33,967 nucleotides of DNA from Solirubrobacterales bacterium (lineage in GTDB: Bacteria; Actinomycetota; Thermoleophilia; Solirubrobacterales; Solirubrobacteraceae). A program made the position numbers and the translations under genes. Below, one piece after another: positions 17,259 to 19,131 of this stretch. The stretch is from positions 1 to 33,967 of the forward strand of contig JAFAPR010000120.1 of NCBI GenBank assembly GCA_019247075.1, in the 5' to 3' direction. The notes under the pieces were generated by a model that was not told the origin of the DNA, did no database searches, and saw only the letters and a program-made list of their open reading frames with translations. The stretch's first letter is position 1. Every line of letters starts with the position of its first letter.

Positions 17259-17741
17259 CTATCGGGCCGGCGCGACGATCGGCTCGTGCCTCACGGGGAA
17301 GTTGACCGAGCTCGCGATGAAGCAGAGCTCGCCTGCCCGGTGATGAAGTTCGCGCGCGGTGCCGACCATGGCAGGTTCGGCGACGGCCACGCGCGGCTTG
17401 AGCACCACCTCCCTAAAGCGCCCTCCTCCGTCCGGATCCTCCTCCATCGAGCCCTCGGCCCGGTCCTCGTACCCGACCACCACCACGCCATCAGCGGCGC
17501 AGAGGTGCAGGTAGGCCAGCATGTGGCACTGGCTGAGCGCCGCGACCAGCAAGCGCTCGGGATCCCAGCGGCCAGGGTCGCCCCGGAAGGCGGCGTCGGA
17601 GCAGCCAAAGATCGCGGGGCGCCCGTCCGCCCTCACCTCGTGGTCGCGAGTGTAAGCGCGATAACCGCTCGTACCGGTGCCGCGGTTCCCCGTCCAGACC
17701 ACGGTCACGGCGTAGCGGTGAGTTTTTCCAGGTATAACCAC
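17259..17741 (-). CDS. OsmC-family peroxidase-like protein
   Basis: A 160-aa OsmC/Ohr-superfamily protein. These enzymes reduce organic or fatty-acid hydroperoxides using two cysteines. C72 in LSQCHMLAYLHLC and C140 in ELCFIASSVNFPV occupy the conserved positions, and RWDPERLLVAALS is the typical preceding helix. GTG start at 17741. It follows the DsbA/FrnE-like gene by 32 bases on the same strand, suggesting an operon of redox genes with nitroreductase upstream. Regulation is not visible; no OhrR or OxyR site was recognised. Substrate specificity is unknown. Confidence 0.88.
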   Translation of the reverse strand: MVIPGKTHRYAVTVVWTGNRGTGTSGYRAYTRDHEVRADGRPAIFGCSDAAFRGDPGRWDPERLLVAALSQCHMLAYLHLCAADGVVVVGYEDRAEGSMEEDPDGGGRFREVVLKPRVAVAEPAMVGTARELHHRAGELCFIASSVNFPVRHEPIVAPAR

Positions 17742-17773: not shown

Positions 17774-18421
17774 TCACGGTGCCTGCCGCTCGCCGTCTTG
17801 CGCGTCGTAGCCAAGGCGCTCGAGCACGCGCTCGAAGACGTCGTGGGGCTGGGCGCCCGGGATGAGCACGCGCGCGTCGACGAGCCATGCCGGGACGCCC
17901 CCTGCGCCCAGCTCGAGCGCGGCGCGCGTCTCTGCTTCGATCCGCTCCAGGTAGCGTCCGTCAGCCAGCGCCTCGATGATCTCGTGCTCCTCCAGCCCGA
18001 CGGCGGTTCCCTCTTCCACCAGCACCCGCTCGCCGCCGATGTCGCGGCCACTGGCCCAGTAGGCGGAGAACAGCCGCGGGTGCAGGGCCTCGAACGAGCC
18101 GCGCTCCCGCGCCAGCTCGGCGACCATCAGCGCGCCTCGCGAGTTGGGGACCTTGTCGAGCGTCCCGGCGAAGGGCAGTCCGGCGCTCTCGAACAGCGCC
18201 CGCCGCCGCTCGGCGAACCCGGCGCCGTAGCGGCGCTCGAGTTCGGCGAGCGGGATGCCTTCGGGGGGGTACTCGGGGTGCAGGTCAAACGGTTTCCACA
18301 CAAGCCGCGCGCCGAACCGGCGCTCCAGCCACGCCGCCCGCTCCAGGCCGACGTAGCAGAAGGGTCATATGTAGTCGCTCCAGACCGCGATCTGGGGCGC
18401 GCCATCCACGGTCTCGGCCAT
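17774..18421 (-). CDS. DsbA/FrnE-like thiol oxidoreductase; candidate selenoprotein with in-frame TGA at codon 19
   Basis: The reading frame from ATG 18421 is MAETVDGAPQIAVWSDYI, then TGA (18367-18365), then PFCYVGLERAAWLERRFGA and the rest of a normal FrnE/DsbA-like protein. Total length is 215 codons. The family motif is Cys-Pro-x-Cys in SDxxCPxCYxG; here TGA replaces the first Cys and Cys22 is kept, giving a possible U19-P-F-C22. No frameshift or second stop was found. Later blocks KVPNSRGALMVAELARE, RLFSAYWASGRDIGGERVL and GVPAWLVDARVLIPGAQPHD match the family, including the cis-Pro region. TGC to TGA needs one base, so a nonsense mutation or read error is the alternative. A hairpin after the TGA fits a bacterial SECIS. 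Neighbours are nitroreductase (71-base gap) and OsmC (32-base gap). Confidence 0.72.
18328..18367 (-). promoter_or_regulatory. SECIS-like hairpin following the in-frame TGA
   Basis: On the minus strand, after TGA (18367-18365) and 7 bases, GCTACG (18357-18352) pairs fully with CGTGGC (18333-18328), including one G-U. Three more pairs (18351-18349 with 18334-18336), a bulged G at 18348 and two G-C pairs (18347-18346 with 18337-18338) lead to the loop TGGAGCG (18345-18339). The loop begins 19 nt after the TGA and has G at its second base, within the usual geometry of bacterial SECIS elements. In GC-rich coding DNA a hairpin can occur by chance, so this is supportive rather than proof. Confidence 0.5.
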
Positions 18422-18492: not shown

Positions 18493-19002
18493 TCAGTCAA
18501 GGTAGGTGATGAAGTTTTCCGCGGGTAGGCGGTCCGGCGGCCTCTTTTCCTGCCAGGGCCAGCCGAGATGGATCAGCGCGACGAACCGCTCGCCCCGCGG
18601 GATCGCTAGAGCATCGAGGCCTCGCTGCGTCCTGAGCACCCCTGGAGTACGCCAATAGCCCGCCAGGCCCCTGCCGTGAGCCGCGAGCAATACGGCATAG
18701 ATCGCGCAGGCGGTGGCACAGAGATCCTCCTGATCTTGAACTGGGTCCTCGGAACGGAGTGCGGTCGCCGCCACCAGCGTCGGCGCGCGGTCCAGCTTGG
18801 GCGCCGCTTCGGGGCCGGCCGATTCCTTCAACTTCGCCCGCGCGAGCGGGCCGATGACCCGGAAGCGCCACGGGTTTGTGAGGTGGTGGTTTGGCGCCCA
18901 CCGCGCCACCTCCAGCAACTCGTCCAGCAAGTCGCGCGTCACGGGGTCCGGCCGGAACGCTTTGTGCGTGCGTCTGCTCCGAATCGCGCTCTCGACGTCC
19001 AT
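18493..19002 (-). CDS. Nitroreductase-family flavoprotein
   Basis: A 169-aa FMN-dependent nitroreductase-family enzyme (NAD(P)H-dependent reduction of nitro or quinone groups). It has AIRSRRTHKAFRPDPV (FMN phosphate contact), APNHHLTNPWRFRVIG (FMN-binding helix and strand), an internal Cys-containing helix CATACAIYAVLLAAHGRGLA, and the FVALIHLGWPWQEKRPPDR C terminus. Short members of 170-190 aa are usual for this group. ATG at 19002 is used; an adjacent upstream GTG at 19005 is equally possible. First gene of a probable minus-strand operon with the DsbA/FrnE-like gene and OsmC. Substrate unknown. Confidence 0.88.
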   Translation of the reverse strand: MDVESAIRSRRTHKAFRPDPVTRDLLDELLEVARWAPNHHLTNPWRFRVIGPLARAKLKESAGPEAAPKLDRAPTLVAATALRSEDPVQDQEDLCATACAIYAVLLAAHGRGLAGYWRTPGVLRTQRGLDALAIPRGERFVALIHLGWPWQEKRPPDRLPAENFITYLD

Positions 19003-19131
19003 CACAATCCCGTCTCGGGTGGTCCGCCGGCCGAGCGGCCCGCGGTCGTGTACTCGCCAGACATCGAAGTGAGCCTAGCTTGAGCGCGACCCTTGCCTAC
19101 CACTTATCTGTGTGCTGAACTGCCCCGCTAG

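Follow-up and report, generated by a model that had tools for sequence, protein, structure and literature searches.

The window, that is the whole stretch of 33,967 nucleotides of Solirubrobacterales DNA that was analysed, carries on its minus strand a 215-codon gene, here called Sec-frnE (18421-17774), which according to Pfam DSBA and an AlphaFold2 model would encode an FrnE/DsbA-like oxidoreductase when it is read through an in-frame TGA. The frame runs ATG...ATA TGA CCC TTC TGC...TGA, with its sole internal in-frame stop at codon 19 (18367-18365, minus strand) and the next in-frame stop being the terminal TGA of the gene (17776-17774, minus strand). Read as selenocysteine (Sec19), a reading that draws on the TGA and Cys codons found at this position in 58 close orthologues (36 and 22, respectively), codon 19 opens the redox motif U19-P-F-C22 (18356-18367, minus strand) at the N-terminus of the first thioredoxin-fold helix, and the product around the site becomes ...VWSDYI-U-PFC-YVG..., where P20-F21-C22 directly follow codon 19 and Cys22 is the only Cys in the translation. 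The read-through product matches Pfam DSBA over residues 10-200 (105.1 bits, cut-off 25.6); the conserved part of the gene likewise begins at about residue 10, and the start codon of the 215-codon frame is putative.

The original prediction had placed a single in-frame TGA on the first Cys of a CPxC motif and had described Cys22 and the downstream codons as intact. Both points hold, as the 215-codon frame has no other internal stop and a scan of named genomes gave 80 loci with Cys (77) or TGA (3) in the corresponding column, a ratio which is not a frequency since the scan used six patterns, one of them a Cys-codon pattern, and favours Cys forms. The three named TGA loci (L009, L010 and L012, titled Actinobacteria or actinobacterium) look like copies of L104, L136 and L135, and were not counted twice.

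Sec-frnE is flanked by an OsmC-like gene (17259-17741) and a nitroreductase-like gene (18493-19005), both on the minus strand. By tblastn, neither gene was matched at the loci of the other 57 orthologues or at L009, most of these loci having flanks of just 0.6 to 1.5 kb, and there is thus no evidence of an operon partner. Rfam matches the window only once, at a tRNA that lies far from Sec-frnE and is identified as tRNA-Asn by ARAGORN. The codon before the TGA (18368-18370) is ATA, a rare codon in GC-rich genes, in the window and in six other TGA forms (G008, G021, G032, G336, G379 and G677); it is ATC or CTC in 24 of the 29 remaining TGA forms, and ATA also occurs in three Cys forms.

Conservation of the in-frame TGA

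Matches to the product at E 1e-15 or better were found in 83 of 201 near genomes, the source genome included. The five best of these are 59-100% identical to it and each has one TGA, at codon 19; the matches beyond these five have at most 38% identity, with CP(F/W/Y)C in the 24 whose motif was inspected. The Sec-frnE orthologue is therefore patchy, being present in 5 of the 201 near relatives. Six of the weaker matches have a TGA or TAG somewhere inside. A wider set came from profile searches, which matched 55 of 399 genomes of the class at E 1e-45 or better and 8 of 396 genomes of the phylum, one of the eight (G677) being new; adding the genus members G008 and G021 gave 58 genomes. Families f1 to f10 belong to one class.

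Among these 58 close orthologues, 36 have TGA in the column and the other 22 have a Cys codon (TGC in 19, TGT in 3). The presence of TGA at one and the same codon in so many orthologues is more than chance would give. All 36 TGA forms retain the PxC that directly follows the TGA, and identity to the window protein is 39-77% across six aligned TGA relatives. No other stop was found within the matched stretches of the 58 orthologues, apart from a TGA at residue 195 in two rows, which, in a match of 196-197 residues, was taken as the terminal stop. Upstream of the TGA, the first strand (VWSDYI) is mostly kept among orthologues, and within the window's own family the eight codons before it show 0.25-0.29 differences per site versus 0.59-0.70 at codons -17 to -10, a stretch that may precede the start codon in some genes. 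The same eight codons show no excess of third-position change.

The locus thus combines an in-frame UGA aligned with the Cys of homologues and conservation on both sides of it, the pattern by which selenoproteins are recognised. The original prediction had held that close homologues should have either Cys or TGA with conserved downstream codons in this column, and that random stops and decay in relatives would speak against selenocysteine; the column behaves as anticipated, and such decay was looked for and found in none of the 58 orthologues. In viral contigs no relative of Sec-frnE was found. In plasmids, 638 records have a match, every one below 60% identity.

Selenocysteine machinery and its co-occurrence with the TGA form

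The four components that the original prediction named for a search of the source genome (selA, selB, selC and selD) are all present. Rfam (64.4 bits, cut-off 47) and ARAGORN agree that a tRNA with anticodon UCA is tRNA-Sec, and selA (442.9 bits, cut-off 267.9) and selB (298.5 bits, cut-off 242.25) are neighbouring genes on the same contig. The selD gene (L098; 366.1 bits, cut-off 125) has an in-frame TGA of its own in the motif GAGUACK, suggesting that SelD of this genome is probably a selenoprotein too; SelD itself is described as a common selenoprotein in the accessible text of an earlier study (PMC1794560). Judging from this gene content, the source genome, a draft in 367 contigs with 87% completeness and 2.9% contamination, makes selenocysteine.

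Across the orthologue set, the TGA form tends to occur together with markers of selenocysteine synthesis. selA is present in 27 of 36 TGA genomes versus 4 of 22 Cys genomes (Fisher p 3.4e-5), counting among the 27 a fragment in G364 that scores under the family cut-off, and tRNA-Sec, under stricter filters, in 20 of 36 versus 2 of 22. The 21 tRNA loci besides that of the source genome are all tRNA-Sec by ARAGORN. At least one of selA and tRNA-Sec occurs in 30 of 36 TGA genomes versus 4 of 22 Cys genomes (p 1.3e-6), counts that are phylogenetically non-independent. The TGA genomes with neither marker (G310, G336, G366, G368, G379 and G410) are 69-88% complete, and four Cys-form genomes with selA (G238, G246, G261 and G299) argue against a strict link. 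In genus g102 a marker was found in 7 of 7 TGA genomes and 0 of 5 Cys genomes, and selA is present in 71 of the 201 near genomes, all five TGA genomes among them. The tree needs just three changes between TGA and Cys, a number too small for co-occurrence to be tested independently of phylogeny, and an independent-contrast test with its three independent pairs has no power.

A predicted SECIS hairpin

The TGA of Sec-frnE is followed by 45 bases that form a hairpin of -24.3 kcal/mol, which is predicted to be a bacterial SECIS element (18323..18362, minus strand) from its folding, from synonymous recoding and from published limits. Its core stem spans 18357-18328 and its apical loop, UGGAGC (18345-18340, minus strand), lies 19 nt after the UGA. 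The available text of a recent review gives the limits of such elements as a loop of 3-9 nt with G in the first two loop positions, an upper stem of 4-16 bp, a spacing of 16-37 nt and an energy of -7.5 kcal/mol or lower (PMC13188914). The loop, spacing, stem and energy of the window hairpin lie inside these limits, as do the structures of 28 of the 36 TGA genes; 14 of the 22 Cys genes also pass, and this filter therefore does not discriminate. Against dinucleotide shuffles, the window hairpin is mildly unusual (z -1.0 to -1.5).

Comparison with synonymous sequences separates the two forms. The minimum free energy of the 15 codons after the TGA was compared, for each sequence, with that of random synonymous recodings encoding the same peptide. 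The mean z was -1.30 in the 36 TGA genes versus +0.19 in the 22 Cys genes (p 2.4e-6), and for nine segments further along the TGA genes it ranged from -0.42 to +0.15 (p 2.1e-9), both p values being from Mann-Whitney tests in which rows were treated as independent though related. Within one genus, the fold after the codon is -9.8 to -12.4 kcal/mol in Cys forms (L143, L144, L145, L149 and L150) versus -22.0 to -28.6 kcal/mol in TGA forms (L135-L141). RNAalifold gave no consensus structure for the 36 aligned post-UGA regions, we think because the upper stem, as seen by eye, pairs in two registers one base apart. When a 13-pair stem was counted in one register, 72.2% of cells were paired in TGA forms versus 67.5% in column shuffles (none of 500 as high), and 66.3% versus 66.2% in Cys forms, a covariation count that is supportive but modest, as relatedness alone can produce such an excess. 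By the recoding comparison, the hairpin is selected beyond the protein sequence, and this only after the codon in TGA forms, which is what a bacterial SECIS would be predicted to look like.

Fold, known relatives and proposed mechanism

The AlphaFold2 model, made from seven TGA orthologues with Cys substituted for Sec, has a mean pLDDT of 90.4, with a first strand at residues 10-15 and a first helix at 20-36. Residue 19 stands at the start of this helix, the place of the attacking Cys in thioredoxin-fold enzymes. Pro177 of the GGVPAW loop (17891..17893, minus strand), invariant in the seven aligned TGA forms, occupies what we take, by position only, to be the place of the thioredoxin-fold cis-Pro. 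In Foldseek the top ranks are five entries of Deinococcus radiodurans FrnE, followed by SCO1869 of Streptomyces coelicolor. This fold, and the position of UxxC where the first helix begins, place the product in the FrnE/DsbA family (PF01323); COG2761 is the FrnE group.

FrnE of D. radiodurans (PDB 5cnw and others; sequence match at E 1.1e-14) shares the fold and has a CP(W/F)C site, but with Cys in place of Sec and with a C-terminal CxxxxC that the Sec-frnE product is without. The closest solved sequence is SCO1869 (PDB 3gl5; E 1.7e-19), which has CPWC at the same place and is about 28% identical in the fold alignment, but is likewise a Cys form. The available text of work on the D. radiodurans protein describes it as a cytoplasmic disulfide reductase, proposes that the C-terminal CxxxxC regenerates its active site, and gives the FrnE proteins of D. 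maricopensis and S. roseofulvus as being without that motif (PMC8945050). Carried by many but not all FrnE proteins, CxxxxC thus does not define the family, and its absence from the Sec-frnE product does not set this product apart from it. Membership in NCBIfam NF041057 (Rcas_1661 family (seleno)lipoprotein), a thioredoxin-like family whose name allows for selenoproteins, was also considered and was rejected, with 22.9 bits against a cut-off of 190.

A mechanism can be proposed from the machinery, the hairpin and the conservation, in which SelB carrying Sec-tRNA(UCA) would bind the hairpin a few bases past codon 19 and selenocysteine would be inserted at the UGA. The enzyme would have a thioredoxin fold with a helical insert and, following the chemistry of the family, would use Sec19 as the attacking selenolate and Cys22 as the resolving thiol, reducing or shuffling disulfides through a selenenyl-sulfide intermediate. 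With no other Cys in the protein and no C-terminal CxxxxC, an outside thiol donor would be needed, and regeneration might be carried out by an outside thiol or the thioredoxin system.

Alternative readings of codon 19

The original prediction that this TGA is read as selenocysteine is supported by the presence of tRNA-Sec, selA, selB and selD, by TGA relatives that show no decay, and by a hairpin confined to the TGA form. Taken together, these observations indicate that the product of the gene is almost certainly, as far as sequence can tell, a selenoprotein from the FrnE branch of the DsbA superfamily, and that the UGA at codon 19 very probably encodes selenocysteine as the attacking residue of the UPFC site. 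A nonsense mutation in a young pseudogene, or a sequencing or assembly error, would need only one base change (TGC to TGA), and the genome is assembled to draft level (367 contigs). Such an origin is nevertheless extremely improbable, as the same codon is TGA in 36 of the 58 close orthologues, across many genera and with no decay, the six aligned relatives are as far as 39-77% identity from the window protein, and the hairpin after the TGA is selected in TGA forms only.

The TGA could also be a real stop, giving either a short upstream peptide or a product restarted downstream that would be without the redox motif. A 175-codon open reading frame does begin at GTG 18301, and the eight codons before the TGA lack the third-position excess that marks coding constraint. 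Those codons are, however, far better conserved than codons -17 to -10, with VWSDYI mostly kept, and PxC after the TGA is retained in every TGA form; in the model, dropping residues 10-18 would moreover lose the first strand of the fold (10-15). A real stop is consequently very unlikely, if slightly less so than a mutation or an error. Finally, UGA might be read as Cys or Trp through a changed code or natural suppression, a reading that would fit the Cys carried at this column by the Cys orthologues. However, the genome has a full Sec system with a tRNA that reads UGA, and the TGA form tracks the Sec machinery and the downstream hairpin, as would be expected for selenocysteine and not for a general reassignment. 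Moreover, Sec-frnE itself terminates in TGA, and reading of UGA as Cys or Trp can be given hardly any weight. The selenocysteine reading corrects the interpretation of genes that a standard open reading frame call would take as broken or start past the active site.

Relation to earlier selenoprotein catalogues

Selenoproteins of this kind are already known, since DsbA-like proteins with UxxC have Sec in place of the first Cys, as in Sec-frnE, a likeness that consists of the Pfam family (PF01323) and the motif alone. As far as their accessible text goes, the Sargasso Sea survey of 2005 describes nine DsbA-like selenoproteins assigned to COG2761 with UxxC (PMC1088965), a 2006 study reports four in bacteria, with three named hosts of which two are deltaproteobacteria and one belongs to the Firmicutes/Clostridia (PMC1794560), and a 2016 study counts 45 in 41 organisms (PMC5029168). 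The family is listed with PF01323 and UxxC in the available parts of a 2022 review (PMC9312934) and of a 2026 review, where it appears as 'DsbA-like protein form 1' (PMC13188914), and two DsbA-like selenoproteins are reported from Asgard archaea (PMC11227280). The members named in these accessible parts (e.g. NIP15863.1) include marine metagenome, deltaproteobacterial, clostridial and Asgard proteins, whereas Sec-frnE is actinobacterial. A literature search for 'selenoprotein' with 'COG2761' returned, in the text available for it, no paper besides PMC1088965, and one for selenocysteine with Thermoleophilia gave none on Sec-frnE by title and opening of the abstract.

The claim of a new selenoprotein, as originally made, thus stands for the Sec-frnE gene and its lineage as judged from these accessible sources but not for the kind, the DsbA-like COG2761 family with UxxC having been published in 2005 (PMC1088965); the clade itself may or may not sit inside the earlier counts. 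With Sec-frnE, this selenoprotein family, on which little work has been done, gains an actinobacterial branch; the known kinds of system are unchanged.

Probable Sec/Cys switches within the clade

The history of the column was followed in a tree of 57 of the 58 orthologues with 14 Cys outgroup rows; the partial sequence L187 (153 residues) was counted among the orthologues but left out of this tree and of a second one without the outgroup. In the tree with the outgroup the Cys rows of the clade fall in three places. One is a subclade of five rows of a single genus inside TGA rows (SH-aLRT 100), which together with the nearest TGA rows forms a group of ten (SH-aLRT 97); another is the single row G238; and the third comprises 15 rows of family f5 (support 98). 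The tree without the outgroup requires 3 changes, and so do its bootstrap trees over the 5th-95th percentile range. The clade therefore needs at least three switches between Sec and Cys, in either direction, if these trees are right. The outgroup rows are all Cys. Two FrnE proteins of other families in the class (L167 and L168) are much more divergent and also have TGA at this column; both are long branches whose place is unsure, L168 falling among the Cys outgroup rows, and they may have gained Sec separately or be what is left of an older Sec form.

G677 (L188 / L162, f49), a TGA form that belongs to another group of the phylum, sits next to the window's family (support 96), a placement suggestive of transfer or of a misplaced contig. 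This placement and the presence of the orthologue in only 5 of 201 near relatives imply that wide loss or transfer must have occurred. A broader proposal is that the clade is an actinobacterial subfamily of FrnE absent from earlier catalogues, spread over several families of one class, in which Sec is ancestral and Cys arose on loss of the machinery. We regard this as a tentative idea, somewhat less probable than its opposite; if true, the clade would serve as a natural experiment on what a cytoplasmic disulfide reductase gains from Sec.

For the five-row genus subclade, a change from Sec to Cys is the best reading, judged from the tree and from Sec markers not having been found in any of the five Cys genomes. 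One genus holds both states, some of its species having TGA and Sec markers and others Cys and no markers that were found, and this split is a candidate for a clean case of Sec loss. Sec and Cys forms so closely related as to share a genus, in species with or lacking the Sec machinery, would allow the cost and benefit of selenocysteine to be measured in a disulfide oxidoreductase.
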